Assembly (NCBI GenBank): GCA_016887505.1
Contig: CP069393.1
Span: 1,350,001 to 1,414,000 of the forward strand
Direction of reading: 5' to 3'
From: Clostridia bacterium
Lineage (GTDB): Bacteria > Bacillota > TC1 > UBA5767
DNA: 64,000 bases
Part shown: positions 5,045 to 23,609 of the stretch, piece after piece
How the letters are laid out: each line of letters starts with the position of its first letter
How positions within the stretch are numbered: position 1 is the stretch's first letter
Made by a program: the position numbers and the translations under genes
Notes under the pieces: model-generated
Told to the model about the DNA's origin: nothing
Databases searched by the model: none
Seen by the model: only the letters and a program-made list of their open reading frames with translations

Positions 5045-8000
5045 TCATCTTAAATGTCTTAATGATCTACCAGTGCTTTTCTCAAATTCTGTTGCCACTT
5101 CGTCGGGAATAATCCCGATAAAATAATCTTCCAAAATATTCCATATTTCATCACTACTAAGACCATTATCAAATAGATATGTCAACATGCCTACAGATAA
5201 TTTATGTCGCAAACCAACAATTTCCAATAACTGATTATGATAGAAATATGGTCGATTGATTATTTCTTTCATGGTTTTTGTTTGGTTAATATAAATATAT
5301 AGTTGGCTATTTCTCCCTCCTAGTGCCTTATATGATAAAACATCGTAGCTCTCAAGAACGCCCAGTATTGTGAGATATTCTTTGAATTTTTTAGAATTAC
5401 CACCTTGATTTAAATATAGTTCATTGTCGGTTTGTTCTCGTTCAATATATGTCAATCCTCTCTTGATCCAATTAAAATACATTGTTACAGCATTTTTAAA
5501 GCGATACTTTATAACTCCAGACTTTTGCTCACGAGCACTATATGGATTGGAATTAAAATTCTTACAATATTCACGAGCATATATACGCATAGCTGAGATA
5601 TTAATCTCAACAATGCTTTTCACTCGATATCTCGAAATCCCCGTCTTTCTATGAAGATTATCTGCAAGTACATCAGCATCAATATAAGTACCTTCACGAA
5701 CGGAGTTATTTATTACTCCACTTAATGCATCATTTACTGCTTTGAAAACATGTTGATGCCCCTTCTTAAAATCAATATCAATTTTTAAAACTGGATCAAA
5801 AGCGTCTAAATAGTCAAAACTCAATGCTCTATCTTTTGAATAGAGCATATATTTGAACTTAGGAAAAGATAAATTTGAACTATACTGTCTTTCCCATAGT
5901 TGCTTCAAATTTACATTGAATACTGAACCTTCTTCATTGATTGGTTTGGCAATATTCCCATACTTATTATTTACAACTGAGGCTGTTTTTGATGAAAGTT
6001 TGAAATATCCGATCTCAAATAGTGGGATTGGACGAACATAAAATGGTGAATATGATAATGACCTTTCAAAGTCTTTTTGAATCAAAAGCATTGCAGTTTT
6101 AACTTTGCTTATCCCATCGTCAGGACTGGAAAAAGCATTCTCAAATATGTGAGAAAAGCTCTCTGCATCCACAAGCATTTCATTGCTCCGTTTAGTCTGT
6201 CTCTTGGTAGGTTTCCTACGAATGTTATCATTATGGAGCTGATATATCTTCTTAATCACTTCTACTAGCTGGTACTCTTTTACCGTTGACAAACCGTGCA
6301 AGCGATTTATATGCTTGAAATCATTGCTCATAAAATCATAAACCGCATTACCCTTAAGTAAGGGTTTTCTTGCAGCTCTACCAATTTCCTGCATGTAATC
6401 GCATACATTACCAGTTGGAGCGAAATGCATCACAATCTCGATATCTTCAATATCAATTCCCATTCCAAACGCTTTTGTAGCAATCATAATAGGCTTCTCT
6501 TTGTTTAGAAATTGGATATAATTCTCTTGCTTAACTAAGGCATCTAGCCTGCCATGGTACTTTGCCACATACTCGCCTACATCATTAATTTTACAATAAT
6601 CATGGAAACGCTCTATAAGAGCAACTGTTGGAAAATAGATTAACGTTTTTCTTTCAGTTACTATTGACCTTTTAATGTTCTTAATTAGAAGGTCAAACTT
6701 ATCAAGCTCATATTCGCTTCTATTTTTAATCTTTTCCCTCTTATTCACAGTTATAGATATATCATCGCGGCGCACATAGCCCAAATAAGTAATGGGATCA
6801 ATCATATGTAAACTTTGAATAGTCTCTTGATACATATTTTCCAGGCCACCAAAAATCGCAGTTGCCGTAAATGTCGCAATAACAAACTGCATTCCTTCTC
6901 TTTTCTGTTGGGATTTTCTCAATTTCATAATATGGTCACCAAGATACCAGTAGTCTGGTCTAAACTGTTTCCCCCAGGTAGTTACAATATGAGCCTCATC
7001 AATGACTAAAACTCCAAGCTTTCTCGGTCCGATAATTTGCATTAAATCACTCTTCCCCATGAGTGATTCAGGTGATAAATAAAGAACATTGCATTTCGCC
7101 TCAGCAATCTCATCAATTATTTCCTGCTTCTTGATTGGTGAAATATCTGAATTAATTGTTCTTGAGTATTTATAACCCCTAGATTCCAATCCATTCACCT
7201 GGTCGTTCATTAAGCCAATAAGAGGTGAAATCACAATTGTAAATAAGCCATAATTCTCTGCTAGATAAATTGCAGGGATTTGGAACATTGCAGATTTTCC
7301 AGCACCTGTAGGAGCTGTAACGAATATATCTCTAAAAGACTCTCCATCTTTACATCTTTCGACTTGTTCAACGAGATGCGATATCACGTCGCTTTGTTTT
7401 ATGTTCTCAATCTCCCTCTTACCATCAGCAATAGAATCCATATCATAGACTTGTATAGGTTTAAAATTATCAGCTCTCCAATATTGCTTTAATATTCTTC
7501 TAAAATCAGGATGGACAAATTCATCCGGAGTTTCTTTGGCCTTCTTAACTATACACATTTCCAAGTCTGGTCTCAGTGTGCTAAGAATGGAAATCTTTTT
7601 TTTCAGAAGGTCAATATCTAATCCAACATTACTTTTAACTATCTGAATCTTTTCAACCTCATCAGTTAGAACTTTATCCAAGAACTGTAAATAGTCCAAT
7701 TCATCAAGGAGGTCATATGTCAATACTCCTTCAGAATACAAATGTTCCGGTACATGGATATTACATTCTTCGTAGAAACTAATTGTTCTTTCTTTCTCAT
7801 CATCCACAAATTGATTAAAGGTGTTATATATTTTTCCACCGATTTCTACAAAATTCGAATATATTTCTGTGTAAGCTTTTGCTGTTTTGCTCATTTCTCC
7901 TGATTTCTTAATTTCTGAGTTGTAGTGACTTAAAAGTTCATCTTGGATTTTTGTTTTTATATTGACACAAAGAGGATAAAAATTTTCATATAGGTTATTA

Positions 8001-8239
8001 TCAATAATTATGACCTTGGGATACTGTGCAAATATAAATTCACGTAGTGCAAGGTATTCATCATAAGTAAGGATATCTTTAGATGATTCAAGACGCATAA
8101 AATATCCTAATCTGTTCTCCAAAAGTCTATCTAAATCTATCTTTCTTGATAAAACCTCATCAACATTAAAGCCCTTAATAACAACCATTGTTTTAGGGTC
8201 CTTATATTCATTAATTAGTTTTTCTAAACTATCTATCAT
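5045..8239 (-). CDS. RecQ-like superfamily 2 DNA helicase with large N- and C-terminal extensions
   Basis: A 1064-residue helicase. The first ~300 residues match nothing I recognise. Then come Walker A APTGAGKSA (about 309-317), SPLIGLMNDQV, the DEAH box VIDEAHIVTTWG (about 413), TFTAT, YHGRLD, KAFGMGIDI and motif VI QEIGRAARK (about 635), all in RecQ-like order. About 400 more C-terminal residues follow without a recognisable RQC or HRDC domain, so it is roughly twice the usual RecQ length. The ATG at 8239 is preferred because GGAGG lies six bases upstream; the more distal ATG at 8260 has none. It overlaps the upstream sigma-factor gene by 11 bp, so the two are translationally coupled. Its role is unknown; defence is plausible from its island context. 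Confidence 0.8.
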   Translation of the reverse strand: MIDSLEKLINEYKDPKTMVVIKGFNVDEVLSRKIDLDRLLENRLGYFMRLESSKDILTYDEYLALREFIFAQYPKVIIIDNNLYENFYPLCVNIKTKIQDELLSHYNSEIKKSGEMSKTAKAYTEIYSNFVEIGGKIYNTFNQFVDDEKERTISFYEECNIHVPEHLYSEGVLTYDLLDELDYLQFLDKVLTDEVEKIQIVKSNVGLDIDLLKKKISILSTLRPDLEMCIVKKAKETPDEFVHPDFRRILKQYWRADNFKPIQVYDMDSIADGKREIENIKQSDVISHLVEQVERCKDGESFRDIFVTAPTGAGKSAMFQIPAIYLAENYGLFTIVISPLIGLMNDQVNGLESRGYKYSRTINSDISPIKKQEIIDEIAEAKCNVLYLSPESLMGKSDLMQIIGPRKLGVLVIDEAHIVTTWGKQFRPDYWYLGDHIMKLRKSQQKREGMQFVIATFTATAIFGGLENMYQETIQSLHMIDPITYLGYVRRDDISITVNKREKIKNRSEYELDKFDLLIKNIKRSIVTERKTLIYFPTVALIERFHDYCKINDVGEYVAKYHGRLDALVKQENYIQFLNKEKPIMIATKAFGMGIDIEDIEIVMHFAPTGNVCDYMQEIGRAARKPLLKGNAVYDFMSNDFKHINRLHGLSTVKEYQLVEVIKKIYQLHNDNIRRKPTKRQTKRSNEMLVDAESFSHIFENAFSSPDDGISKVKTAMLLIQKDFERSLSYSPFYVRPIPLFEIGYFKLSSKTASVVNNKYGNIAKPINEEGSVFNVNLKQLWERQYSSNLSFPKFKYMLYSKDRALSFDYLDAFDPVLKIDIDFKKGHQHVFKAVNDALSGVINNSVREGTYIDADVLADNLHRKTGISRYRVKSIVEINISAMRIYAREYCKNFNSNPYSAREQKSGVIKYRFKNAVTMYFNWIKRGLTYIEREQTDNELYLNQGGNSKKFKEYLTILGVLESYDVLSYKALGGRNSQLYIYINQTKTMKEIINRPYFYHNQLLEIVGLRHKLSVGMLTYLFDNGLSSDEIWNILEDYFIGIIPDEVATEFEKSTGRSLRHLR

Positions 8240-9299
8240 TTCTTTCCTCCAGGTCACCATGCATAGCTTTTATTTCCTGCATTTTACGTAACTTTGAAAG
8301 TGCCGTTGATTCAATCTGTCTAATTCGTTCTCGCGTCACATTAAAATGTTTCCCTACTTCCTCTAATGTCATTCTTTCCCCAGTAGTAATACCAAATCGC
8401 ATCCTGATGATTTCAGCTTGTCTTGGCTTTAGTCGACCAACACAATCATGTAATTGTCTGCTTATAAGTTTTCGCTCAACTTCTTGTTCCACTGTAATTC
8501 CCTCTGGAACAAATAATTCAATCAATTGGGTATCATGGTCTTCACCAACACAGACATCCAATGAAGCTGGGCTTAGAAGATTGTGGCTTATAGAAATTAT
8601 TTCTTTTGCTTTTTCAATAGAATAATTTTCTTCTGATACTAGAAAATCAGTTAATTCCTTATCTGTCTCAAAACTATGGTTTTGAATGGTTTTACGAATA
8701 TGATTAACTTTCTCAAATAGATGGACAGGTATTCTTACAAGGTATCCATTATCTGGGATGGCTCTGGTAATACTCTGTGTTACCCACCAATGGGCGTAGG
8801 TAAGAAACTTACATTCTTTCTTAATATCAAATCGTTCAACAGCTTTTTTAAAACCAAAAAAGCCATACATATAGAGGTCTTCATCATCTAATCTGTGCTG
8901 ATAACTCTTCGAATACTTTTGAACTATTTTCCATATGAAGCGTTCATTTTTTTGAATTAGTATTCCTAAAACATTTTGATTACCTCTTTGATACATCAAA
9001 CAGAGTTCTTCATTATTTAGCTTATTCAAACCAGAAGAGTCAAACGCTATTGTTCTATTTGATATTTCACAAGTTTCTTCTAAATGGTCATAATTGCCTT
9101 TCGAATCATTGTTTAATTCCTGTATATTTGTAGTTTCATTATCAAAAATAAGGTCTATACCACGTTCAATTAAATAGTCAATGATAATGTACTTATCCTG
9201 CAGTGGTAAAAAATCAAACAATTTTTCGAAACTCTGCTCACTAATTTTTTTCCCCACCAGATGTGGGTTGATTAATTTATCGATAAACTCTTTATTCAT
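8229..9299 (-). CDS. Sigma-70 family RNA polymerase sigma factor (RpoD-like, accessory)
   Basis: A 356-residue sigma-70 protein. Regions 2 to 4 are present: region 2 around RFIWKIVQKYSKS to FLTYAHWWVTQSITRAI, region 3 around VRIPVHLFEKVNHIRK, and region 4 ending in the helix-turn-helix MTLEEVGKHFNVTRERIRQI. The first ~110 residues are not a normal region 1 and match nothing I know. The ATG at 9299 is chosen for the GAGGTG site six bases upstream. It is an accessory sigma factor rather than the housekeeping RpoD, because it sits in a mobile island and runs directly into a RecQ-like helicase gene (11-bp overlap). Pairing of a primary-type sigma with a helicase is unusual. Confidence 0.85.
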   Translation of the reverse strand: MNKEFIDKLINPHLVGKKISEQSFEKLFDFLPLQDKYIIIDYLIERGIDLIFDNETTNIQELNNDSKGNYDHLEETCEISNRTIAFDSSGLNKLNNEELCLMYQRGNQNVLGILIQKNERFIWKIVQKYSKSYQHRLDDEDLYMYGFFGFKKAVERFDIKKECKFLTYAHWWVTQSITRAIPDNGYLVRIPVHLFEKVNHIRKTIQNHSFETDKELTDFLVSEENYSIEKAKEIISISHNLLSPASLDVCVGEDHDTQLIELFVPEGITVEQEVERKLISRQLHDCVGRLKPRQAEIIRMRFGITTGERMTLEEVGKHFNVTRERIRQIESTALSKLRKMQEIKAMHGDLEERNDR

Positions 9300-10464
9300 T
9301 GATTTCACCTCACTACCATGGCTATAACCCTTTATCAATACTTGCCTTGCACAATTAAATTATCCTAAATTCACACTAATTCAAATAGTCATTATCTTTA
9401 AAAGCCTCTATTTATTAATAATTGCGCACCACAGCAACTATTCCTATCTACCCGTTAACTGAATTATAAAACTTAATTAGACTAAATATGGTCCATGACA
9501 AAACTGACATATTATAATTGTCCCATCACAAATCATACGCACCTAGCAACCGGGTAAGCACTATAGAATACATCATATTTTTCCATCTAAAGAATAGATA
9601 TCATTTGAGCCCAAGAAACGAGGTCACATAAACCAACTGCATCATCTAAGCCAAATAACATATCAGCACAACCACAGAAACCCACTCTGGCTAACCCTTT
9701 GGAGAAGCCAAAATATAAGGCCTTTTTCAGTAAAACAAAATATATAATAGTACTCCTGAGCTTATACAATATTGGTCGGTACTATTACCAAGATTTGCTT
9801 TGTACATCCATAGCAGTCTGGTCTACTCGGCACAAACAGAGTTCGTAACTAACTCTCGCCCTTTCAGGTCTGTCATGCTGACTATATCGATTTAGCTTTT
9901 TTCGAGCACTTATCAATTATTAGTTCAACAATCTTCCTCAAAGGGCTTGGTCTCTGTATGAAGCGAAATCAATGTTTCAACAGGCAGTAAGTGAATTTTT
10001 TTTGCTATAGTTATAATAGTTCATATAGTTATTCTTCAGGCATCAATATTAAGCCGGTTTTGCATAGTGTCAGTCATAAAAACATGTATTGGTGTAAATT
10101 CAGCACAAAAAAGCTAGACAGACATATGTCCATCTAGCTAAATTATTAGGTTCTAATAACAAAATATTCCATTTTATAGTTTCCTCAGTTTATGGTTTTT
10201 GGAAACTCCCTGTATGAATTATATACAACTAAATTATAAAACGCAATGATGGACCCTATGAGGACAAATCTTATTTTGCTTATATTTCTTCCGTAATTCA
10301 TAATTATGTACCCTGTATTGATGAAATTGTAACACTCAGTGAAAGATAAAGAACTCACAGCTTCCACACTTACGAGAATATCAGACAATAATGAGAAGAT
10401 CCTGAAATCAATAAGATAGCAGTTCAAGGGAATACTTTTATTACACAATTAAATTATAATTCAC
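9300..10464 (-). other. Gene-poor AT-rich interval between sigma/helicase pair and defence-like operon
   Basis: About 1.1 kb without a convincing gene. Short open frames exist at 9587-9769 and 10185-10448 on the minus strand but show no family signature or good ribosome site. The only clear structure is a minus-strand terminator-like hairpin at 10107-10139, described separately. The DNA probably represents decayed sequence between IS insertions. Confidence 0.4.
10107..10139 (-). terminator. Terminator-like hairpin in the gene-poor interval
   Basis: On the minus strand AGCTAGA pairs with TCTAGCT (arms 10112-10118 and 10133-10139), with further pairing inside, and is followed by six T residues. 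It implies a transcription unit, possibly now decayed, ending here from the right. Confidence 0.5.
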
Positions 10465-10763
10465 TGTTCGAGTATCCGGCTGAAATCAGAAGGATAATAT
10501 ACACAACAAACGCCATCGAAACCTTTAACCGCCAGTTACGCAGAGTCACGAAATCCAAGAGTGTATTTCCAACCGATGATGCCCTGTTGAAAATGCTGTG
10601 TCTGGCAATGATTGATATAACCAAGAAATGGACTATGAGGACTTGGGACTGGGGTAAAATTATTAATCAGCAAGCAATTCACTTCGAGGGCATATTTGAC
10701 CTTCCCCCAGAACGAGTTAGGAAAAATCTTTAGGAAAGTTTATACTAATTTCTTGACAAATTC
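10465..10763 (+). pseudogene. 3' remnant of the IS256-family element found intact at 30.5 and 34.9 kb
   Basis: About 300 bp match the last 300 bp of the intact copies (31594-31893), including the end of the transposase and the right terminal repeat region. The frame reads FEYPAEIRRIIYTTNAIETF onward with a handful of substitutions and a displaced stop. The 5' three quarters are missing. It abuts the 3' end of the defence-like operon, which is 44 bp away, and is older than the intact copies because it has diverged. Confidence 0.85.
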
Positions 10764-10806: not shown

Positions 10807-11247
10807 TCATTCCTCAATCTCTTCTATTCGCTCATCTAACATTTCAACCAGCTGAAATACCAGTCCTTCTTCATCATACTTTGAGAAATCAGGAACAAGT
10901 TTTTCAATAATTCCAAATCCTGTATTAGCATATTCCTCCGCTATTCCATACACTAAATCAGTGTTCCTAATTTTATCTTCTTCTTCTGTCTTTCTTAATT
11001 CATCAATTGCTACAGAGTAAATATAAGCCATTACAGAGTCTTTCCCTTTTGCCGATGATTCAAGAACAAGTCCTTCCTTGGATTTTGATTTTGTTCTAGT
11101 TCCTTCATTCACTCCTAATGCGAATGCAAGCATAAAAATATCTGTTCTTTCACCATTTGACTTCAAGCAAAGCATGTCAACTTTATCAATTTTTTCTTTA
11201 ATTAATCCCTCAACATACTGTCGGTCTGCGGATAATCTATCTGCCAT
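10807..11247 (-). CDS. Small protein of the DndD-like operon (DndE-sized, function unknown)
   Basis: A 146-residue acidic protein, last in the six-gene operon and only 3 bp after the DndD-like ATPase gene, with a GGAGG ribosome site overlapping that junction. It has a short N-terminal basic helix (RLSADRQYVEGLIKEKIDK), a central RTDIFMLAFALGVNEG segment, and a strongly acidic helical C-terminus ending EERIEEIEE-like. The RTDIFMLAFALG stretch and the position after a DndD-like gene recall DndE, but similarity is too weak to call. No enzyme motif is visible. It may be an adaptor for the ATPase. Confidence 0.6.
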   Translation of the reverse strand: MADRLSADRQYVEGLIKEKIDKVDMLCLKSNGERTDIFMLAFALGVNEGTRTKSKSKEGLVLESSAKGKDSVMAYIYSVAIDELRKTEEEDKIRNTDLVYGIAEEYANTGFGIIEKLVPDFSKYDEEGLVFQLVEMLDERIEEIEE

Positions 11248-11250
11248 TGC

Positions 11251-13230
11251 TTAAGCCTCCCTTATAGTTGCTATTTCATCTGTAGTAAGCTTATTGTAAC
11301 TTGAAATAACCTCTTGATTTAATACATTACTAATTTCATCTGAATATTCTGATGGAGTAACCGCCAAAATTATTTGCTTCGATTGGCTTACATTTAAAAG
11401 CACTTTTGCAAAATTTTCTCTGTTAATATCTGAAACTCTTCCAACCGGCGTATCAATAAATAATAAATTATCGTATCCTGAAACTTCATGAAGTCCAATC
11501 GTAAATGCAAGTGCAAGCAATTCCTTTTCTGCTGCTGAGCAACTATGTAGGCAGGATAAATTTGTTCTTTTATGGAACAATTTCAGTCTAAAATTATCGT
11601 CTAGTTCAATCCTTCCGTATGTTTCTTTCTTCCATAATAATTCCTCGAAAATTTCCATCGTTCGTTTTTGCATTTTTGACTTTACATCAGTAACAATACT
11701 ATTCTTAATGCTTATAATGATTTCCCTAGCATCTGACACAAAATCATAGTGTCTTTTAATATCATCGCAAGTGGAATTATCCTTTATTGCTTGGTCATAT
11801 TCTTTCTTTTTATCTGTTTTTTCTTTTTCTAAATTTTCTAATTGGGTTTTATACGAACCTTTTTTTTGAGAATTTAATTTAACCAAGTCCTCATTATTTC
11901 GTTTTTGCATCATTGCTATTTCGATCTCTTTTATTTCACTGACTGTTGAAATTTGATTATATAATTTATCATTTTCAGCATTTAGATCATCAATTTTGTC
12001 TTGATATTCTTTCAATAATCCAAATATTCTTTCTTTATCATTCTGATATTCAGATACTTCAAGTCCTCTATGAATGTCATTTTTTATTTCTGTAAGCTTC
12101 TGTATCGATACATTCGACATAAACTTTTGAACTAAAGTTTGAAAATATTCTTCTGCTGATTTATTCAAATCACTACCGCAAATTTTACATTTGTGTTCTT
12201 CTAAACTATTCTTTATGACATCAATATTAATATCTGGAACTAACGAACCATCCCCCACTTTTTGCATGATATATTGTTCTGTATTTTTATTTTTCTTATA
12301 CAATAATATCTTCACTAAATATTTTCGAACAAATATTGATAATTCTTGTTTTACCTGCATAAGTTTCGCTTCATATCTTACAATTTCTTCCTTATTCTTA
12401 TTATATCTATTATTATACTCTACAATTCTCTCAGTCCCGTTAATTATTGAATCCATCTGCTCAATCGCTTTTTCTGAATTCGCGATCTGCTCCTCGATTT
12501 GCGCTATTTCTCGCTTTTTATTGTCAATATTATTCTGTACTACATTTAATGCTGTTGCCTTTGCTTCGAGATTTGGTGATAATCTAGATAATTTTTTCTG
12601 ATATTGCTTAGCAAAACTTCCCAGATGTTCTTCGACTTTTCCAATCACATTTACCTGAGCAATTTCATAAATACTATCTCGTATATGAGACACGTTACTA
12701 ATATCTGGATCAAAATAATTAAGCAATTGCTCACCATCAAAATAAAAGTACTCTCTTATTTTCTTCGGCAAATATCGATTTATAATTTCATCTGCTTGTG
12801 CTTCCTCATACCTATAAGTATCTCCACTCGCTCTAGTTTCTAAAACATTGAATATGTCCTTTCCTGCTTGGAGATAGGTGTTTACACTAATTGAAGCTTT
12901 ACGTTCAAATACATACTTTTGGTTTCCTTCAGTCATACAAATTTTAACCACAACATATCCATATTGTTCATCATTTATTTTCGCTTCTTCGATAGCATCT
13001 ATATTACATAATGATAACTTATCCTTTTGATTACTGATCAATTTTACTGCTCCAGAGGCATGTGGTTCATCCCCGTACAGGCACCAGTTGATCGCATTTA
13101 AAAGATTTGTTTTCCCAACTCCGTTTGAAGCTACAATAATATGCATATCATTCTCTGATGTCTTGTCAAAACAAAACTTAACATTCTTATATTGTCTATA
13201 GTTATTTATTTCAATTGATGAAAAGCGCAT
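11251..13230 (-). CDS. DndD-like SMC/Rad50-type zinc-hook ATPase
   Basis: A 659-residue protein built like DndD/SbcC. It has an N-terminal Walker A, ASNGVGKTNLLNAINWCLYG (about 34-53), a long coiled coil, a central zinc hook CKICGS (about 347) flanked by coil, then an ABC signature region SAAEKELLALAFTIGL and a Walker B of the DndD form LLFIDTPVGRVSD, where TP replaces the usual DE. DndD-type ATPases couple ATP hydrolysis to DNA nicking or conformational change in phosphorothioation and related defence systems. Its start overlaps the stop of the microprotein gene by one base (TAATG), showing coupling. No dndB or dndC gene accompanies it, so it is not a standard Dnd system. Confidence 0.8.
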   Translation of the reverse strand: MRFSSIEINNYRQYKNVKFCFDKTSENDMHIIVASNGVGKTNLLNAINWCLYGDEPHASGAVKLISNQKDKLSLCNIDAIEEAKINDEQYGYVVVKICMTEGNQKYVFERKASISVNTYLQAGKDIFNVLETRASGDTYRYEEAQADEIINRYLPKKIREYFYFDGEQLLNYFDPDISNVSHIRDSIYEIAQVNVIGKVEEHLGSFAKQYQKKLSRLSPNLEAKATALNVVQNNIDNKKREIAQIEEQIANSEKAIEQMDSIINGTERIVEYNNRYNKNKEEIVRYEAKLMQVKQELSIFVRKYLVKILLYKKNKNTEQYIMQKVGDGSLVPDINIDVIKNSLEEHKCKICGSDLNKSAEEYFQTLVQKFMSNVSIQKLTEIKNDIHRGLEVSEYQNDKERIFGLLKEYQDKIDDLNAENDKLYNQISTVSEIKEIEIAMMQKRNNEDLVKLNSQKKGSYKTQLENLEKEKTDKKKEYDQAIKDNSTCDDIKRHYDFVSDAREIIISIKNSIVTDVKSKMQKRTMEIFEELLWKKETYGRIELDDNFRLKLFHKRTNLSCLHSCSAAEKELLALAFTIGLHEVSGYDNLLFIDTPVGRVSDINRENFAKVLLNVSQSKQIILAVTPSEYSDEISNVLNQEVISSYNKLTTDEIATIREA

Positions 13231-13400
13231 TACTCATTTCCCCTTTCATTCAATGCTAAGTCGATCAATTCTTTATATTTTTTACTATACTGGCAACTTT
13301 CATTTTCATGATTTACAATATCAAAAAGAAAATCCCTCATTGCCTTATCATTCTTTGTTTTTTCCTCCAATAGTGCTTTAATAGTCAAGTTCTTTATCAT
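13230..13400 (-). CDS. 56-residue microprotein of the defence-like operon
   Basis: A 56-codon gene locked into the operon at both ends: its ATG (13398-13400) overlaps the helicase stop as ATGA, and its TAA shares one base with the ATPase start. The product starts MIKNLTIKALLEEKTKND and is charged and helical, with a single cysteine in ENESCQYSKKY. No family is recognised. Because the two overlaps preserve the coding frame chain, it is very likely real. It may be a small subunit linking helicase and ATPase. Confidence 0.7.
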   Translation of the reverse strand: MIKNLTIKALLEEKTKNDKAMRDFLFDIVNHENESCQYSKKYKELIDLALNERGNE

Positions 13401-15532
13401 TCCGTAACCTCCCTTAAAATAGAATATACTTCATTTAAAACAGATGAATTATTGATAGCATTTTTCGATAACTCCAATACACGGTCCATCTCTTTTTTGA
13501 AAATACGCTTTTCTAATTCAATTATCTGGTCATTATGAAAATCAGAAATATCTGGTTTAATAATCATATCGTATATATTCGCAATATTTTTCCCTGGTGC
13601 CTGTCTGATTATTCTACCTATCCTTTGTATATACTCCCTTGGATTTGTACTACTTGCCATTACTATAGCTCGGTCTGCTGAAGGAATATCTATTCCTTCA
13701 TCCAAACATTTTATTGCAACAAGAACCTGATACTTTTTCTCTTTAAAACATTTAATAATGTATTGTCGCTCTGATAACCCTCCGTATTTATCTGATGATA
13801 TTGTAGATTGTGCCTGAGTAAATCTAGACGCAGAAATACCATTTTCCCCCAATATTTTCATTACTTTGTCCATCTGATCGGCCGAAACAAAGATAATTGT
13901 ATCTGATATTTCTGCCCCAATCTCCGACAAAATAGATTCTAATTCTCTGTATTTTTCATGTGCATTCTTTTCGATATCTGCACGTTTAAAACGCATCATC
14001 TGAAGGTAATTGTAAGTTTCTTCACTTTTAAATCTGCTAATACGAATTATTTTATCTGTAATTATTTTATATTCTTCTAGCTCATCCTCTGTCATTGATA
14101 TGAATCGAGGTTCATACTTAAAATTAACTAGAAAAGGCTTTCCGGTTAAAGGATTATGATTTTTCAAAGCATCTTCAAGTGAAAATTCATATGATTTACC
14201 ACCAAAATACTTTTCAATTAAATAACTACCCTCATCATCAAACCAACGCTGGGGTGTCGCGCTCAATCCTAGTCTATATGAATATCTTTCTAGCAAACCA
14301 TTTTTTGTTTTTGCCGCACCCAAGCCATGAACTTCATCGCCTATCAGAAATTTTGTTATTCTGTCACTAGTATCATTTATTAAATTGATATAATTTTCAG
14401 AACTACAAATTTGATGAGTCGAATAAACAACCAAGTTTCTATATAAACCAGTGCTTAATTTCAAAATTTCTCGTTTTAATAGTGATGGCCAATTAGTTAC
14501 ATTCCCATTTATCTCTATTGAATGGTCAACTTGTATATCCAAACTTTCAATATCTGTTTTCCATTGGGATGCCAATGTTATTTGCGGACATGCTATAACT
14601 ACAAGTAGCTTTGAAGTATCTTCCATTGCATTCTTAATACAACCGATTGCAGTTCTTGTTTTGCCACAGCCCGTTGCCATTTGCAAAAGTAAATTTCTTT
14701 CATTATCTTCCCACATTTCAACTGCTTCCTTTTGATAAAAGAATAGCTTTAGTGAAGGTTTTGGTGATTGCATTTCGATAATAATATTGTTTGGATAATA
14801 ATTCTTTATTGCCAGCATGGAAGGCTCAAAATATTGACTTTCAGTTATTAGTTTTTCTGCAAGAGCTTGTGGAATATCTTTTACCTCAACATCTGGCCTT
14901 ACAGCTCTCCAAAAACTGTCAAATTTCTTAATATCATCCTCTATATAAGGTATTGCGCCCGACCAACTACAAAACACTTTGAATTCTTCTGTATTGCCAA
15001 GCCACCCCGATGCTGATTCATTATTGGAGCCACTAAAGGATAAAATATTTCCACTTTGGTCATGGAAAATTCCAACTTTCTGATGCATAATTCCTAATTC
15101 ATTTATCTGGTCAGCACTACACATCTTGCCATTTTTTTTTATTACCGCAATTTTTATTTCAAGCTTATCTTTCGCAAGCATCCAGCCTAGTGCCATAATA
15201 TGGTCCTTTTGAAATTGGGATTCAATCTGCGAATAATCACTAATAAATTTTTCTGTAAGCAACTCATCTAGATTTTTAACAGAATTTTCTAGCATCATAA
15301 TATCATCGCAACTTAATTGCGGACATGTCACTAATCTCATCTTGCCACCGTTAGAGATAAAATTCTCCAACCCTCGTGCAGCCAGTGCTAAACTACTTGA
15401 TGAAAAAAATCCAGCAATTCTATCATAATGATTGGATAACGATAATACCGGGATATAAAATTCCCATAAAACATCATCCATTCCTGAATCATATGAAATT
15501 TTTAGTGGTATATTGGATAAGTTTTTAGTCAT
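13397..15532 (-). CDS. PLD-nuclease/superfamily 2 helicase fusion
   Basis: A 711-residue fusion. Residues 1 to about 230 form a phospholipase-D-like domain: RIAGFFSSSSLALAARG, then MHQKVGIFHDQSGNILSFSG with the catalytic HxK (His about 150) and a following SGSNNESASGW. The rest is an SF2 helicase: QKEAVEMW, Walker A MATGCGKT (about 286), DEVHGLG (about 397), LSATPQRW, GIDIPSADRAI and motif VI QRIGRIIRQ (about 636). Such proteins are common in defence islands, where they act as nuclease/translocases on DNA. It begins four bases after the 230-aa gene and its stop overlaps the microprotein start. Only one HxK is seen, so a dimeric nuclease is likely. Confidence 0.82.
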   Translation of the reverse strand: MTKNLSNIPLKISYDSGMDDVLWEFYIPVLSLSNHYDRIAGFFSSSSLALAARGLENFISNGGKMRLVTCPQLSCDDIMMLENSVKNLDELLTEKFISDYSQIESQFQKDHIMALGWMLAKDKLEIKIAVIKKNGKMCSADQINELGIMHQKVGIFHDQSGNILSFSGSNNESASGWLGNTEEFKVFCSWSGAIPYIEDDIKKFDSFWRAVRPDVEVKDIPQALAEKLITESQYFEPSMLAIKNYYPNNIIIEMQSPKPSLKLFFYQKEAVEMWEDNERNLLLQMATGCGKTRTAIGCIKNAMEDTSKLLVVIACPQITLASQWKTDIESLDIQVDHSIEINGNVTNWPSLLKREILKLSTGLYRNLVVYSTHQICSSENYINLINDTSDRITKFLIGDEVHGLGAAKTKNGLLERYSYRLGLSATPQRWFDDEGSYLIEKYFGGKSYEFSLEDALKNHNPLTGKPFLVNFKYEPRFISMTEDELEEYKIITDKIIRISRFKSEETYNYLQMMRFKRADIEKNAHEKYRELESILSEIGAEISDTIIFVSADQMDKVMKILGENGISASRFTQAQSTISSDKYGGLSERQYIIKCFKEKKYQVLVAIKCLDEGIDIPSADRAIVMASSTNPREYIQRIGRIIRQAPGKNIANIYDMIIKPDISDFHNDQIIELEKRIFKKEMDRVLELSKNAINNSSVLNEVYSILREVTE

Positions 15533-15536
15533 TTTC

Positions 15537-16229
15537 TCACTTCCATTTCAAATGGGTTTCAATGATTTCTTCACTATCAATAGATTTACAAACATATTCT
15601 AGCATGGTTCTAACATTTGGTCTTCGACGTATTGCTGTACTTTCTGATAAGTAATTACGAAGTATTCCCATCATATTAACTTCATGATATCTTGCATCAA
15701 TAACACTTTTCTGGATTATTGGTATTAGCAGAAATAATTTTGTTCTTATTTCTTTTCTTACATCATCATCAAATTCAATATATTCTTTTCCAATATAGCT
15801 AACAGAAAATGGTTGATGCTTTGTTGTCAGATGCATTAACGATGCAGTTTTATAATGATTTTCTCCATATTTTGTCTGTGCACCTTTACTACCTGTTTTA
15901 TTAAAAAAATATCCAATCAATTGATAATTGCAACCTGGATTAGACTCTACTATCCTAATAACATCGTCTATTGAATTTATGCTACTATATTGCGGAATAT
16001 TTTTAGCCGATATATCTTGTATACTCGTTGCATCTGCTTCAATAATATCAATTATTTTCCTTACCGATGTTTTATTAATGGTCTTAAGTATATGTGCAGC
16101 TACTCTCTGCAATTCACCTTCAGCATATTTTCCCTGAGGTATCACATCAACTGGGTGTAAATAGAATAATCTTAAGATTTCATGGTCATAAATACTACCA
16201 TTGAGTATTTTTTCTATATAACTTTCCAA
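15537..16229 (-). CDS. Unknown 230-residue protein of the defence-like operon
   Basis: I do not recognise this family. The product is 230 residues, mixed alpha/beta by eye, with no signal peptide or membrane segment. Noticeable segments are FYLHPVDVIPQGKYAEGELQ near the N-terminus, KTGSKGAQTKYGENHYKTAS (about 112-131), rich in basic and polar residues, and RNYLSESTAIRRRPNVRTML near the C-terminus. A TTG start (16227-16229) with AAGGGA nine bases upstream is used; the gene begins two bases after the radical SAM stop and ends four bases before the helicase start. The basic segments would suit nucleic acid binding, but that is inference. Confidence 0.72.
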   Translation of the reverse strand: MESYIEKILNGSIYDHEILRLFYLHPVDVIPQGKYAEGELQRVAAHILKTINKTSVRKIIDIIEADATSIQDISAKNIPQYSSINSIDDVIRIVESNPGCNYQLIGYFFNKTGSKGAQTKYGENHYKTASLMHLTTKHQPFSVSYIGKEYIEFDDDVRKEIRTKLFLLIPIIQKSVIDARYHEVNMMGILRNYLSESTAIRRRPNVRTMLEYVCKSIDSEEIIETHLKWK

Positions 16230-16231
16230 AC

Positions 16232-17428
16232 CTAATCATCCCTTCTCTTTTTCACCCGTCTTTGCTTCATATCAATTACATATTTCTGTTGGTCAAATCT
16301 TAAATCAAAATATTTTGCTGCAATATCTGGAAATTTTTTTTCGAACTCTATCATTGCTTTCATTGCAGAACACAATGTCCCCACTGTTTTATGATATTCT
16401 TGATTTGCTTGACAGTATTGCCTAAATGATTTTTTCTTCAAAAACTGAGGCTGATTACACCATCTAGCAATCTGGATAAACATTCCCTTATATGGACTGT
16501 TCAAATAATATTCATGCCGCATAATATAAGGTAAACAACCATATTTGATAATAATTGAAATCCTTTCAAATATGCTTGCAATTTCCACTTCATCTTGTGA
16601 AGCAAATCCAGAAAGCACATATAATTTTGTACTTTTGCAATTATAGCTTCTCCATAATTTAAGTTTTTCTTCTATTAAATCCCTATCCTCAATATGGTCA
16701 AATGCAAATATTATATCCCCCTTATATTTTACGTTGTTAAGTATTTCTGCTTTTTTAGAAGTAAGTAACCGAATATCAAGGCCTTGCCTAAATTGAAATG
16801 GTTTCCCTATTGCAATAAGTTCATCAAATACTTCTTTCCACTTTCCATATGCAAAAATATTATCATCCCACAAATAAATCCCTTTTCTGCTCGTATCAAG
16901 CCATTCAGATATATGGGAATGAAATTGAGCTTTATCATATTTTCGGTTTACACAAAACTCACATTTTCTGAAACACCCTCTTGTCGCAAAACCTATTGAA
17001 TAATCTGTATAATCTTTCCAATACACTGTTTTGTTTTTATGCAATGCATTATGTTCTATATACTCGTCATAAATGTGATAGTCTGGCATATGATGTTCAA
17101 TTTCGCAAGGTAAATCCATTCCACCATCAAAATAAAACCCTGTGCCTCCGTGAAACACATTATCAAATTCTAATATTTTTTCATCAATTGTTGTAAAATC
17201 AAAAACTTTCGATATATATATTGCATCGTATTCTCTAATACCTTCATAATCGTCCTTTGTAATGCATTCATAGTTTTCGATAAGTTCCACATCGCATCCT
17301 TGCTCTTTAAAAAATCCACTTAACTTCATAATAACTAGGTTTGGATGACGTGTTCCATTATCCAATAAATCTGCATCAATCAATCCTATTTTCCCTCTAA
17401 TACTGTAATCAACACGTTGTTTCATCAT
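16232..17428 (-). CDS. Radical SAM protein with B12-binding-like N-terminal domain, first gene of defence-like operon
   Basis: A 398-residue radical S-adenosylmethionine protein. The cluster motif CFRKCEFC (CX3CX2C, cysteines about 152, 156 and 159) follows ATRG, as in the family. The N-terminal part, KIGLIDADLLDNGTRHPNLV then MKLSGFFKEQGCDVELIE, is the Rossmann-like leader found in B12-binding radical SAM proteins, though no clear cobalamin-binding DxHxxG is present. The start at 17428 is preferred over 17464 because AAAGGA lies seven bases upstream. It is the promoter-proximal gene of a six-gene operon with a nuclease-helicase and a DndD-like ATPase; a base-modifying or sulfur-inserting role is inference. 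Confidence 0.75.
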   Translation of the reverse strand: MMKQRVDYSIRGKIGLIDADLLDNGTRHPNLVIMKLSGFFKEQGCDVELIENYECITKDDYEGIREYDAIYISKVFDFTTIDEKILEFDNVFHGGTGFYFDGGMDLPCEIEHHMPDYHIYDEYIEHNALHKNKTVYWKDYTDYSIGFATRGCFRKCEFCVNRKYDKAQFHSHISEWLDTSRKGIYLWDDNIFAYGKWKEVFDELIAIGKPFQFRQGLDIRLLTSKKAEILNNVKYKGDIIFAFDHIEDRDLIEEKLKLWRSYNCKSTKLYVLSGFASQDEVEIASIFERISIIIKYGCLPYIMRHEYYLNSPYKGMFIQIARWCNQPQFLKKKSFRQYCQANQEYHKTVGTLCSAMKAMIEFEKKFPDIAAKYFDLRFDQQKYVIDMKQRRVKKRRDD

Positions 17429-17521
17429 TAAACGGTCCTTTGCATTTATATTTATAAAGTGCATTATCCACTATTAACCCAGTCGCATATTCAGGAAATT
17501 CAGGTTAGTAATATTATGTTT

Positions 17522-18170: not shown

Positions 18171-21100
18171 CTATATCAGACCTGATTTCTGAAGCAATCG
18201 CTGAGCCATGGCTGCAACTTCTGCACGTGTTACGTAATCTTTTGGTGCAAGTGATTTATCATCTTTTCCAGATACAATCCCTGCTTTAAGACAATTTGCT
18301 ATGCCAGTCTCGGCATAAGCAGAAACGGTATCATCATCTTTAAAAGTACCGAGTAATGTGCTGATTTCACTTTCAGTTAAATCTATATCTAATTCTGTAA
18401 TGTCCATTGCTAAAGCCAAAATGGTTATTGCCTGTTCTCTGGTGATCCTATCATTTGGACGAAATGTTCCATCCTCATAACCAGAAATCAATCCATAGTG
18501 CTTAGCTGTTGCAATATAACCACTGTACCAAGCAGAATCAGCGACGTCACTAAATTCATTTTCCACAGCACCATCGTCAAGGCCTAGAGCCTGAACCATT
18601 ATTACAGCAAACTCCGCTCTTGTTATCGCACCGTTTGGATTGAATGTTCCATCTGTATAACCAGATATGACCTTGCGAGAAGCCATATCATTTACCGCAT
18701 TTTGTGCCCAGTGGCCTTCCACATCTTCAAACTCTATCGGATTATAGATAAGCGCATAAACGCTATTCGTCAGGCTGTTGATCACGGCATAATATATACC
18801 CTCTATGACAGTGATTTGGGTTGGTACATGGCGTACACTACCATCCGAATCTACAATGACCGCAGTTGTTATGGCCTTCGCGTCAACGTCACTCGGTATT
18901 TCAATCCTCCGTTCAACATACGATTTATAGCTTGAAACAGTACGTGTTTCTCCGTTATAGGTACAGCTAACTGTAAATTCAATCGGCTCTACCATAAGGA
19001 TCAATCCACCCTTTTTCAATGCAGCTTCCACAACTAGCTCCATATCCTCATTCGGTTCAGAAATCATTACTTCGACAGTAATGTCAGAAAGATCAATCGC
19101 CTCACCAAAACGGGCTGCCATCGCATCAATATCGATTTCTTTTGCAGGCAGAGTATAGATTGCTGAGCTTGTCTTAATCATCAAACTAGCATTCTTCTCT
19201 TCCAGGTTCTTGACCATCTTCCCAGTTATAAGACCGGACTTTATATCAGAACCACTAATAATAGGTACTTCAACCGTTAAACCATCTGCTTCAGAATTTA
19301 ATAGTGCTTTGAGTTTATCGGTATCAATACTAACTTTTGTCTTTGTTCTTCCCTCTTCATTCATACCATTTTGTTTTTTAGCAGCTGTATACCCCTTGCC
19401 ATTTACCAAAATAACGACATCGTCGTATAAATTTGATGAAGAAGATGTACTATCTGACCTAGAATTATTAATGTTCTGGGTCACTATGAATACAACCGTA
19501 TCCATATTATCCGCACTAACCATCACTGTTGCTTCGTATACACCTTTAGCAAGCCCATTATTTGCCGCTATGGTAAAGCTTGTAGATTGATTTGAAACAA
19601 GGTTTGTTTGTTTTGGTTGCGTAAAACTAAATGATTCAGCGTCAGCTCCACTCATTGAGACAGCTAAGCCAGTTAGATTTCCAGTGCCATTACACAGTAT
19701 TGTGATGATTTTGGTTTCTTGAGTTCCAGAAGAATAATTAGATTTCAAGGTAGACATCATGAGATCATTCAAGTCTTCTACTGTATAGGTTTCACTAGTA
19801 GTAAAGCTCTCTACCTCACCATATGACCTTCCAAGACTGTTTACGGCATAGGACCGCAAGTAGTAGGTAGTGCTGGGACTAAGGCCACTTGCTACTTCAC
19901 TAAAACTGCCAGTTCCTGTTCCCATGCTTACCTTGGTCACGCCTTCCGCACCCATTACGGGTACGTCATCCGTTGACGAATAAAGTACTCCTTTATCACT
20001 TACTGGTTCGCCACCAGAATCTGACACATTTCCACCTAGTGTTGCCTCTGTTGCCGTGACTTGCGATACTTCCGATGTCGTCAAGGTCGGTACAGTTTCT
20101 ACCCTAGCCCCAATAGTAAGTGTGCTGGTTTTTATTTCATTTTCTGATGCTAATTCGATTGACCCGATGGTTACACTGAACGCCGCTAGATCTGAGTCAA
20201 AATCCCTACCATCATACCCAAGCATCACCGTACATTCTGTATTGTTATCATAGGTAATAGCTTCTATTGTTACCCCATCTGGAGCATTATCTAGTGTGAA
20301 GCTTGATGGTAAAAGTTCACCATCTACAAAAGTCGTACCTGAAAGCTTTATTGTCAAGATAGCTGTACCGAGGTTCTCCTCTGTTAATGATGTCGCTGAG
20401 CTTAAAGAGGCACTTATGGAATCCGTTGTAAAAGCTACAATCGAACCATATGATGTTCCAATATTGTTTGTGGCATAGGACCGTATGTAGTAGGTTGTGC
20501 TAGGACTAAGGCCACTTACTACTTCACCAAAGCTGCCAGTTCCTGTTCCCATACTTACCTTGGTCACGCCTTCCGCACCCATTACGGGTGCGTCATCCGT
20601 TGACGAATAAAGTACTCCTTTATCACTTACTGGTTCGCCACCAGAATCCGACACATTTCCACCTAGTGTTGCCTCTGTTGCCGTGACTTGCGATACTTCC
20701 GATGTCGTCAAGGTCGGTACAGTTTCTACCCTAGCACCAATAGTAAGTGTGCTGGTTTTTATTTCATTTTCTGATGCTAATTCGATTGACCCGATGGTTA
20801 CACTGAACGCCGCTAGATCTGAGTCAAAATCCCTACCATCATACTCAAGCATCACCGTACATTCTGTATTGTTAGCATAGGTAATAGCTTCTATCGTTAC
20901 CCCATCCGGAGCATTATCTAGTGTGAAGCTCGATGGTAAAAGTTCACCATCAACAAAAGTCGTACCTGAAAGCTTTATTGTCAAGATAGCTGTACCGAGG
21001 TTCTCCTCTGTTAATGATGTTGCAGAGCTTAAAGAGGCACTTATGGAATCCGTTGTAAAAGCTACAATCGAACCATATGATGTTCCAATATTGTTTGTGG

Positions 21101-23609
21101 CATAGGACCGTATGTAGTAGGTTGTGCTAGGACTAAGGCCACTTACTACTTCACCAAAGCTGCCCGTTCCTGTTCCCATACTTACCTTGGTCACGCCTTC
21201 CGCACCCATTACGGGTGCGTCATCCGTTGACGAATAGAGCACTCCTTTATCACTTACTGGTTCGCCACCAGAATCTGACACATTTCCACCTAGTGTTGCC
21301 TCTGTAACCATCACTTGTGATACTTCCAATGTTGATACTTCCGGTGCAGTCCTAGCGGCCTTGTTTATAGCTACAGAGTAGAATACAGTTCTTGAATCAT
21401 CGTTCGCAGTTACCGTTATGTATACGTCAGTCGTACCTCCTTCTGTTAGAAGAAGTGAATTGCCAGGCATTATTTCATCAGAAAAATCTGACTCTAAATA
21501 AAGATTTATCTTCGAATACTTAGAAGCCGTGATATCTGAAACTGATATATCAAATATACTATAGTCTATATCAATATTCCATAAGACAGGGTCGTCACTG
21601 CTTCCTGCACCGCTTGTCTTAGTATCCGTCATAGATAAAACACTTACTAATTCCGCTTCACTGCGAATTGGTAAAACCATGGCCGAAACGGATACACCAT
21701 CTTCTTCCGTCGTTTTCAAAAAAGCTTCTTTGGCCGCACTGTTTTTCTCAGCTGTAATCGAAATACCGTCCATTGTAATAGATATTGTAGAACTATCTGT
21801 TATTTTTGCACCGTTATCGTCATACCAGGTAACTCCTTCATAGGAACCTGTTTTTATCGTGGAAAATAGAGTATTCGCAGTCTCATATTCACTATCTGAA
21901 GTGTATGAAAAGAGCAGAGGGGCTGCTGAAACATATGCTGCATCCGTTGTATCCATGTCGAAATCAGCATCGGCTGGATCTGCAAGTCGAGGATAAATAT
22001 TGTCTGAAAATGTCCAGTGTTCATCCGTCCATCCTTCTCCACTTGAGCCTGTTCTGAGTCCAGTTCCTATCATATTTAAAGTAGATATTCCTTCTGCCTG
22101 ATTTGAATAATCTTTATCGCCTATACCTTTATATGTGGACATCTGCTTGTCATAATAGCAATCTAACGCATAATTGGAACTATTCTGACCGAGTATTGCG
22201 CCTACATAGCGGTAGCTACACGCTATGGTACCGCTATTATAACAGTAGGACAATTCTTTAGGTGACCCGAATCCGACCAGCCCTCCTAGGTAGCGATAGC
22301 CTGATACGAAACCAGAGTTATAGCAATATAAAACTGCGCCAGAGGTAAAACTGTTGCCAATCAACCCTCCCACGTTAGAAGTTCCAGATACAGTACCTGT
22401 ATTATAGCAGTGCAACAACTCTGCACTACTGATTTGGCTGGCCATACCACCAATATAATCGGTATCCCCTGATACACTCCCGGTGTTATAACAGTAAGAC
22501 AGTTTGCCGGTATATATAAGACTACTAAAGCCACCGATATGATTAGCACCTGATACCTTGCCTGTATTATAACAATATGAAATTGTATTATTATAATTGT
22601 AGCCAACTACACCGCCTAGATGATCCGTACCTGATAGGGTACCCGTATTATGGGAGTATGACATCGAGCTATCAATACCATAACCTACTACACCGCCAAT
22701 ATAGGAATCTCCTGATATATTGCCTGTGTTATAGCAATGGGAAAGTTCCATACCCTGGTGCCTACCCGCAACGCCACCTAGATCTGAATTGCCAGATATG
22801 GTCCCGGTGTTATAACAATAGGATACCATGCTATTCGCACTGTAACCGACTACCCCCGCAACATAGTTATTTGTGCCTGTTATAATTCCCTCATTATAGC
22901 AGTATGACAATGTGCTATCCTCGATAAAAGCGGCTATGCCAGCTACAAATTTGTCACTAGCAGTGATATAGCTGTTGACTATTCCCAAATTTTCAACAGT
23001 TCCATTACTGATATGTCCAAACAATCCCTGATATCTTGTTGTCCCATCGATATATATTCCTTTAATAACATTTCCATTGCCATCAAATATACCCGAAAAA
23101 TTCTTGGAAGACTCCGCACCTATAGGCACCCATTCGTTGATTGTAAACGGTGCCAAGCCAGTAGTTCCAAATTGATCCGTGTACACTAAACCGGCAGTAC
23201 TTTTTGTGCTGTCAAATGTTTCGTTGCTGCCACTATCATCGCCAGCTATACCAGTGCCCAACCAATATGTCGTTTTTCCTTCTTTGGCAACCACGACAAG
23301 CCCAGTATCAGCGTCTAATGCAAAACTCACGCCAATGTTTAAGTCGATTTCACCAGCAAGCTTAAAATGCTGATCTTCAAAATCTTCCCCCTGGTTGACT
23401 AAATAAGCTAAATCAGCCAAATCTTGGGCACTTGAAATGATATACGGATTATCTTGGGTCCCAATACCATCCGTGAATCCTGTCGGCGCATTGTCCACCG
23501 TCGGATAACTCCATTCGCCATCGGAAGCAACTGCTGTCGATTCTAGTAGCGGGAAAAAAGATAGAACCATACATAGTGTGAGAATAACGCTTAAAGCTTT
23601 CTGTTTCAT
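18171..23609 (-). CDS. Large S-layer-homology surface protein with GLUG repeats and duplicated fibronectin-like modules
   Basis: An 1812-residue exported protein. A signal peptide (about residues 1-29, ending ESTAVASDG) is followed by a region of about ten GLUG-type repeats, each like GGVVGYNYNNTISYCYNTG (about 195-500). Then comes a cadherin-like strand domain (about 690-755) and three fibronectin-like modules beginning ATLGGNVSDSGGEPVSDKG, interleaved with two linker domains. A beta-rich region precedes three SLH domains (about 1625-1812; FEDVEGHWAQNAVNDMA and FSDVADSAWYSGYIATAKHY are two), which bind pyruvylated wall polymers. It is thus an S-layer-anchored adhesin or structural protein. 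AAAGGGTG precedes the ATG. A terminator follows. It is flanked by the defence-like island and the ECF operon. Binding target unknown. Confidence 0.88.
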   Translation of the reverse strand: MKQKALSVILTLCMVLSFFPLLESTAVASDGEWSYPTVDNAPTGFTDGIGTQDNPYIISSAQDLADLAYLVNQGEDFEDQHFKLAGEIDLNIGVSFALDADTGLVVVAKEGKTTYWLGTGIAGDDSGSNETFDSTKSTAGLVYTDQFGTTGLAPFTINEWVPIGAESSKNFSGIFDGNGNVIKGIYIDGTTRYQGLFGHISNGTVENLGIVNSYITASDKFVAGIAAFIEDSTLSYCYNEGIITGTNNYVAGVVGYSANSMVSYCYNTGTISGNSDLGGVAGRHQGMELSHCYNTGNISGDSYIGGVVGYGIDSSMSYSHNTGTLSGTDHLGGVVGYNYNNTISYCYNTGKVSGANHIGGFSSLIYTGKLSYCYNTGSVSGDTDYIGGMASQISSAELLHCYNTGTVSGTSNVGGLIGNSFTSGAVLYCYNSGFVSGYRYLGGLVGFGSPKELSYCYNSGTIACSYRYVGAILGQNSSNYALDCYYDKQMSTYKGIGDKDYSNQAEGISTLNMIGTGLRTGSSGEGWTDEHWTFSDNIYPRLADPADADFDMDTTDAAYVSAAPLLFSYTSDSEYETANTLFSTIKTGSYEGVTWYDDNGAKITDSSTISITMDGISITAEKNSAAKEAFLKTTEEDGVSVSAMVLPIRSEAELVSVLSMTDTKTSGAGSSDDPVLWNIDIDYSIFDISVSDITASKYSKINLYLESDFSDEIMPGNSLLLTEGGTTDVYITVTANDDSRTVFYSVAINKAARTAPEVSTLEVSQVMVTEATLGGNVSDSGGEPVSDKGVLYSSTDDAPVMGAEGVTKVSMGTGTGSFGEVVSGLSPSTTYYIRSYATNNIGTSYGSIVAFTTDSISASLSSATSLTEENLGTAILTIKLSGTTFVDGELLPSSFTLDNAPDGVTIEAITYANNTECTVMLEYDGRDFDSDLAAFSVTIGSIELASENEIKTSTLTIGARVETVPTLTTSEVSQVTATEATLGGNVSDSGGEPVSDKGVLYSSTDDAPVMGAEGVTKVSMGTGTGSFGEVVSGLSPSTTYYIRSYATNNIGTSYGSIVAFTTDSISASLSSATSLTEENLGTAILTIKLSGTTFVDGELLPSSFTLDNAPDGVTIEAITYDNNTECTVMLGYDGRDFDSDLAAFSVTIGSIELASENEIKTSTLTIGARVETVPTLTTSEVSQVTATEATLGGNVSDSGGEPVSDKGVLYSSTDDVPVMGAEGVTKVSMGTGTGSFSEVASGLSPSTTYYLRSYAVNSLGRSYGEVESFTTSETYTVEDLNDLMMSTLKSNYSSGTQETKIITILCNGTGNLTGLAVSMSGADAESFSFTQPKQTNLVSNQSTSFTIAANNGLAKGVYEATVMVSADNMDTVVFIVTQNINNSRSDSTSSSSNLYDDVVILVNGKGYTAAKKQNGMNEEGRTKTKVSIDTDKLKALLNSEADGLTVEVPIISGSDIKSGLITGKMVKNLEEKNASLMIKTSSAIYTLPAKEIDIDAMAARFGEAIDLSDITVEVMISEPNEDMELVVEAALKKGGLILMVEPIEFTVSCTYNGETRTVSSYKSYVERRIEIPSDVDAKAITTAVIVDSDGSVRHVPTQITVIEGIYYAVINSLTNSVYALIYNPIEFEDVEGHWAQNAVNDMASRKVISGYTDGTFNPNGAITRAEFAVIMVQALGLDDGAVENEFSDVADSAWYSGYIATAKHYGLISGYEDGTFRPNDRITREQAITILALAMDITELDIDLTESEISTLLGTFKDDDTVSAYAETGIANCLKAGIVSGKDDKSLAPKDYVTRAEVAAMAQRLLQKSGLI
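19806..21310 (-). repeat. 627-bp tandem repeat inside the SLH surface-protein gene
   Basis: Two nearly identical 627-bp units (about 21310-20684 and 20683-20057) plus a partial third (about 20056-19806) encode 209-residue blocks of one fibronectin-like module plus a linker domain. The units differ by only a few bases, so the duplication is recent or kept uniform by recombination. The 627-bp spacing is a multiple of three, so copy number can change without frameshift. Confidence 0.88.

Follow-up and report, generated by a model that had tools for sequence, protein, structure and literature searches.

What defence system, if any, is encoded by six closely packed genes on the minus strand of a Clostridia bacterium genome, and what do the two genes at its front contribute? 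The genes lie between nucleotides 10807 and 17464 of a 64,000-nucleotide stretch of contig CP069393.1 (positions 1,350,001 to 1,414,000; hereafter the window, to which all coordinates without a locus number refer). They specify a radical S-adenosylmethionine (SAM) enzyme (RSAM), a 230 amino acid protein (U230) and four proteins corresponding to the effector cassette PbeABCD. The front pair is new and genes 3 to 6 are known. With a probability of roughly 0.6, the whole is read as a Pbe-type self/non-self defence operon in which RSAM and U230 would replace the usual modification module, DndCDEA or a methylase.

The PbeABCD effector cassette

PbeABCD has been described as an effector cassette accompanying DNA phosphorothioation (PT) (PMC6459918, PMC10853773). 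It blocks virus DNA replication in a PT-dependent manner, a PT-modified virus escapes the tested system, so that marking protects, and 165 of 553 cassettes have no modification gene nearby (PMC6459918). The components are re-described in PMC10853773, where PbeB is suggested to act as a negative regulator and Pbe to be a possible suicide system.

The product of gene 3 (13397-15532), an HKD/phospholipase D nuclease domain joined to a superfamily 2 (SF2) helicase, matches the PADLOC PbeA model PDLC02707 (E-value=1.4e-213) and, under the model cut-off, TIGR04095 (dnd_restrict_1; 4.9e-107). It retains the HKD motif (H150QK...D...GSNN), Walker A (GCGKT) and DEVH. Gene 5 (11251-13230) specifies a DndD-like ABC ATPase with matches to the PADLOC PbeC model PDLC02712 (8.1e-83) and, again under the cut-off, to TIGR03185 (DndD; 5.5e-31); Walker A (GVGKT), signature (SAAEK) and Walker B (LLFIDTP) motifs are present, and the apex of the coiled coil bears CxxC (C348-K-I-C351), not CxC. 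The 56-residue product of gene 4 (13230-13400) matches no family model, and its homologs occupy the equivalent position in L009, L010, L011, L015, L026 and L209. Gene 6 (10807-11247; 146 amino acids) resembles DndE through a weak match to TIGR04062 (dnd_assoc_4; 3.4e-5, far under the cut-off) and through its position; it has no PADLOC match, and counterparts at the same position in related operons share 25-62% identity. The co-directional order pbeA-pbeB-pbeC-pbeD is that published for PbeABCD.

Judged by these sequence comparisons, genes 3-6 are the known PbeABCD effector cassette, and most of the operon has therefore already been named; a wholly new six-gene system was rejected on this account. 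The initial annotation had recognized a Dnd-like helicase and ATPase, which the strong PADLOC matches bear out, and had missed the name PbeABCD; its microprotein and DndE-sized protein fit PbeB and PbeD by order and position. Identity with a named defence system thus extends to these four genes, RSAM and U230 lying outside the known set.

RSAM and U230

Gene 1 (16232-17464) specifies 410 amino acids from the first ATG, or about 398 from 17428. RSAM carries the cluster motif C164xxxC168xxC171, the cysteines of which are kept in 41/41 relatives, and a fourth invariant cysteine, C310. It matches the PHROG family phrog_9298 ("radical SAM domain protein"; 1.9e-50), and its AlphaFold2 (AF2) model (pLDDT 91) has an N-terminal Rossmann-like domain and a radical-SAM barrel, the closest PDB folds being MgmA (top), MiaB, AprD4 and RimO (E-values 3e-6 to 1.5e-4). 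The cysteine motif, the PHROG family and the fold place RSAM in the radical-SAM superfamily. The Rossmann domain would probably hold cobalamin or substrate. A MiaB-type methylthiotransferase is disfavoured, since no N-terminal set of three cysteines for a second cluster, such as MiaB and RimO possess, is conserved among the relatives. Viperin was ruled out by the lack of any PADLOC or NCBIfam viperin match.

U230 (gene 2; 15537-16229, with a TTG start) is the proposed DNA-site-recognition partner of RSAM. The window copy, called unknown in the initial annotation, matches no family model of Pfam, NCBIfam, PADLOC or PHROGs. In an alignment of 25 members the motifs KYGEN and TxxRR are invariant or nearly so, and the AF2 model is all-helical (pLDDT 95).

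Occurrence of the pair

Profile scanning of about 85,000 genomes for RSAM gave 65 loci, whose genes were counted by tblastn and by clusters of open reading frames (ORFs), PbeB and PbeD often being too diverged for tblastn. RSAM, U230, PbeA and PbeC occur together in 17 of the 65, nearly all in the gene order of the window; L016 also has all four, with PbeA and PbeC encoded on the opposite strand. L157 and L209 bring the loci with RSAM, U230 and Pbe to 19 besides the window. Their hosts include Bacillota, Lentisphaerota, Spirochaetota, Kiritimatiellota, a nanoarchaeal bin, Methanomethylophilus and one virus contig. Peptacetobacter hominis, Acidaminobacter sp. JC074 and Anaerovibrio sp. JC8 are carriers that have been cultured. 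Because the same order recurs in unrelated genomes, across several phyla, the arrangement seen in the window is not due to chance.

Searches that began with U230 agree. Among 398 genomes of the window's phylum they returned the window, genome G250 (L157), where RSAM follows U230-PbeABCD closely but is encoded on the other strand, and a weak match in G214. Nothing at the G214 locus resembles RSAM or Pbe, and it probably falls outside the group. Tblastn found no U230 in phages or plasmids; when 2.9 million viral contigs were scanned later, a single locus emerged, L209, with a fused RSAM-U230 and PbeABCD. All three strong loci (window, L157 and L209) thus possess RSAM and PbeABCD. The fusion of RSAM and U230 into one polypeptide is seen in six loci (L011, L012, L013, L019, L047 and L209).

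Five further loci have RSAM and U230 around a different effector set and contain no Pbe genes. This second six-gene system (L022:9998-15716, L023:9983-15731, L025:9944-15734, L027:9998-15762 and L065:7439-13226) consists of RSAM, a ParB-like protein, a 136 amino acid protein, an SNF2 helicase, a second ParB-like protein and U230. The ParB-like proteins match no Pfam family, and the 136-residue protein appears nuclease-like, with a PD...ExK-like motif recognized by eye. In L017 and L019 the pair has other neighbours. The latter, from Thermoplasmata (L019:9923-15321), has, besides the fused protein, another gene for U230 and a divergent coiled-coil protein that bears a weak resemblance to LmuB.

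Phylogeny

The RSAM tree, built from 73 rows, has a branch with a support of 96 that unites all 27 U230-linked RSAMs with five viral ones, apart from 41 U230-less phage or mobile RSAMs. No U230 was found in the records of the five nested viral copies, in a search that had no positive control and in records that may be fragments. A U230-linked clade excluding all viral copies was rejected by the approximately unbiased (AU) test (p 0.0007); the hypothesis that the alternative-effector RSAMs arose once was not formally rejected (AU p 0.08). Of the 20 RSAM-U230-linked proteins in the PbeA tree, 18 form a clade with a support of 97, to which L199 is sister. The PbeA proteins of L047 and L016, both long-branched, fall outside this clade, which suggests that the pair probably moved onto other Pbe effectors in these two loci. 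The PbeC apex is CxxC in the RSAM-linked relatives, except L047, and CxC in PP-loop-linked loci.

Modification genes beside Pbe

The classic PT genes had been noted at the outset as absent from the operon, and a search of the whole genome gave no match to dndC at E<=0.001; of 24 other hosts, 21 have it under the cut-off or lack it. The one PAPS-reductase-family gene of the genome lies about 1 Mb from the operon. In the first 30 kb of the window, where the larger ORFs and part of the small ones were searched, no DNA methyltransferase was recognized.

An inspection starting from PbeA covered 22 loci of the same phylum sample, including the window. PP-loop (PAPS-reductase-like) genes were found in 10, several with a cysteine desulfurase, and RSAM-U230 in two. 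Four others carry a distant radical-SAM gene (418-685 amino acids) immediately after PbeD (L191:13486-15543, L199:4800-6056, L204:4276-6309 and L205:3352-4836), and in six no modification gene was recognized. Since radical-SAM genes appear among these 22 loci both with U230 and in the distant form, they are a recurrent partner of Pbe. The L199 enzyme has a Pfam B12-binding domain and weak similarity to HpnR and PhpK. In L191, L204 and L205 a protein of 1121-1156 amino acids precedes PbeA, with a sigma-70 region-4-like domain in the L191 and L205 copies.

Phage and viral relatives

Viral contigs contain RSAM relatives, of the same phrog_9298 family, with up to 55% identity. Except for L209 these lack U230 and Pbe. 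Context was counted in 50 loci having three ORFs on each side: a ParB/methylase gene lies within three ORFs of the viral RSAM in 21 and a SAM synthetase near it in 10. In one phage (L087:8019-9843) the radical-SAM gene is followed directly by a Mom-family gene (Pfam Mom, 1.4e-41).

A gut-phage cassette combines a short (260 amino acid) SAM-synthetase-like gene, a ParB-methylase fusion and the radical-SAM enzyme (L003:3997-7122, and many viral loci such as L116, L130 and L138); it is a probable DNA-modification pathway. The 260-residue gene upstream of RSAM in L003 was considered as a U230 and rejected, having no similarity to it and possessing a SAM-synthetase domain. In L041, L049, L051, L054, L056, L058 and L064 RSAM is paired with a conserved primase-like gene of 320-374 amino acids (cluster 21); these elements look mobile and often carry a gene for a surface-type protein of about 1800 amino acids.

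Comparison with known systems

The operon shares with the DndCDEA-PbeABCD systems (PMC6459918) and the CxC ABC ATPase-DndE systems (PMC10853773) the effector order and the adjacency of presumptive modification genes, as well as an HKD nuclease and SF2 helicase PbeA, a small PbeB, a DndD-like PbeC with apex cysteines and a PbeD with weak similarity to DndE. It differs in having RSAM and U230 in place of DndCDEA or a cytosine methylase, CxxC rather than CxC at the apex, and a PbeA from a separate, supported clade. Since DndC is absent and the hook departs from CxC, it falls outside the canonical membership of both the PT-based and the CxC-hook group. Both mentions of "radical SAM" in PMC10853773 refer to DndC. 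We found no paper on radical-SAM enzymes with Pbe, although an earlier mention may exist in the comparative-genomics literature.

Cobalamin-type radical-SAM methylases (MgmA, HpnR, PhpK) likewise have an N-terminal Rossmann-like domain followed by the barrel, whereas the window RSAM has no sequence match to these families and is proposed to act on DNA. In Dpd, an unusual base, 7-deazaguanine, is made with the help of a radical-SAM enzyme (QueE) and accompanied by a helicase-based restriction set; no Dpd modification gene is among the six, and the likeness is confined to generic helicase domains.

Proposed mechanism and alternatives

U230 would bind chosen sites in the DNA and position RSAM, which, by means of its [4Fe-4S] cluster and S-adenosylmethionine, would give the host DNA a mark formed by radical chemistry, a methyl or similar group being the likeliest. 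PbeC and PbeD would scan the DNA while PbeB would restrain the helicase-nuclease PbeA, which would block or cut DNA without the mark. That the pair marks self DNA is argued from the need of the tested Pbe system for a self mark, the absence of dndC, the position of the pair in the modification slot, its fusion and its exchange as a unit, and from the phage relatives clustering beside DNA-modification genes. The initial annotation had suggested modification combined with attack on unmodified DNA; gene order, fusions, module exchange and phage contexts favour this, while DNA as the RSAM substrate, the chemistry of the mark and the immunity itself are what we infer from them.

Several observations weigh against this reading. 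The window RSAM, first described as having a B12-type leader, matches neither the B12-binding nor the Radical_SAM model of Pfam; it has a Rossmann-like fold, and its placement draws on the cysteine motif, the PHROG family and the fold. No structure in the PDB or among viral models matches the U230 model at E<=0.001, and a DNA-binding role is suggested by function and by weak matches, in a few single members, to the Pfam families AAA_assoc_C and DUF7226, which we take to be winged-helix families. The phage RSAMs that lack U230 indicate that not every member needs it, and neighbouring genes alone do not prove that RSAM would act on DNA. The loci were sampled by a pattern scan, and their frequencies are therefore rough.

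RSAM might instead make a small antiviral molecule or modify a protein or tRNA, with U230 as a regulator and PbeABCD a separate, co-inherited effector. The nearest solved folds do include modifiers of tRNA (MiaB) and protein (MgmA, RimO), and to our knowledge the radical-SAM enzymes so far found in defence are viperins. The window RSAM has neither a PADLOC viperin match nor the second-cluster cysteines of MiaB and RimO, its strict linkage and fusion are with U230 and not with other partners, and its phage relatives adjoin DNA-modification genes, all of which makes this explanation unlikely. The same gene content would also suit a two-step attack, in which the pair marks or damages foreign DNA and so recruits PbeABCD; sequence does not fix which DNA is marked, and U230 could recognize that of a phage. 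Such an attack is decidedly improbable, given that marking protects in the tested system, from which a PT-modified virus escapes (PMC6459918), and that phage RSAMs, some nested in the U230-linked clade without U230 in the record, fit a protective mark better.

Two further explanations leave the pair without a role in marking. The tested Pbe system requires PT marks (PMC6459918), and some other part of the genome might supply the phosphorothioation or methylation on which the cassette depends, the radical-SAM pair being incidental; the lack of DndC, the remoteness of the lone PAPS-reductase-family gene, the lack of a recognized methylase among the larger ORFs searched and the recurrence of RSAM-U230 with this Pbe clade render this very doubtful. 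Least credible is an abortive-infection device without a DNA mark, in which RSAM-U230 serves as an autoregulated sensor or toxin; negative regulation by PbeB and a possible suicide function of Pbe, both proposed in PMC10853773, would accommodate it, and the modification-module position of RSAM and its exchange between unrelated effectors speak against it.

The many Pbe cassettes that lack dnd and methylase genes (165/553) were already a puzzle in the 2019 Pbe paper (PMC6459918), and for part of them the pair provides a conserved candidate mark-maker. Were the mark on DNA, radical chemistry could alkylate positions beyond the reach of ordinary SN2 methylases, and the self-tag would differ from methylation, phosphorothioation and 7-deazaguanine and have a counterpart gene family on the phage side; phages with a defence-type RSAM may disguise themselves. 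More tentatively, and with the balance of probability somewhat against it, RSAM-U230 could represent a class of DNA-modification enzyme not seen before: a radical-SAM catalyst, probably dependent on cobalamin, that is guided by a DNA-binding partner of novel fold and produces a carbon-centred genomic self-tag. The pair would then serve at least two unrelated effectors of the restriction type, and phages would have taken the catalyst as a DNA disguise.

Operon structure and surroundings

The six ORFs are co-directional, with 2-4 bp between genes or with start/stop overlaps; checking of the junctions confirmed the tight packing first described, including ATGA between genes 3 and 4 and TAATG between genes 4 and 5. 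A purine-rich stretch resembling a ribosome-binding site precedes most of the genes. RSAM probably starts at 17428 or 17425 rather than at 17464, since the alignable part of its homologs begins further in and AAGGA precedes 17428. The single promoter that had been proposed fits a candidate sigma-70 sequence, TTGTAA-N17-TATAAT (17550-17522, minus strand), which was assigned by consensus match, and such matches are no commoner in the region than in shuffled sequence.

The operon region has a G+C content of 31-33%, compared with about 40-45% further right in the window. Of the decayed IS256-family bracket described earlier, one side holds, with IS256-like fragments at 10461-10631 (57 codons) and 4282-4656; on the opposite flank, a 5.4-kb gene intervenes before the closest copy (25877-27091), which is full length. 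The intervening gene (18171-23609) adjoins the operon and specifies an 1812-residue SLH-domain surface protein with near-identical repeats. The flanking gene chosen for an empty-site comparison is absent from both relatives in the genus. In the same low-G+C stretch (5045-9338), a gene for a DpdF/Cas3-like DEAD helicase (1071 amino acids) overlaps a sigma-70-family gene resembling MzaA, and this pair is possibly a second defence system.

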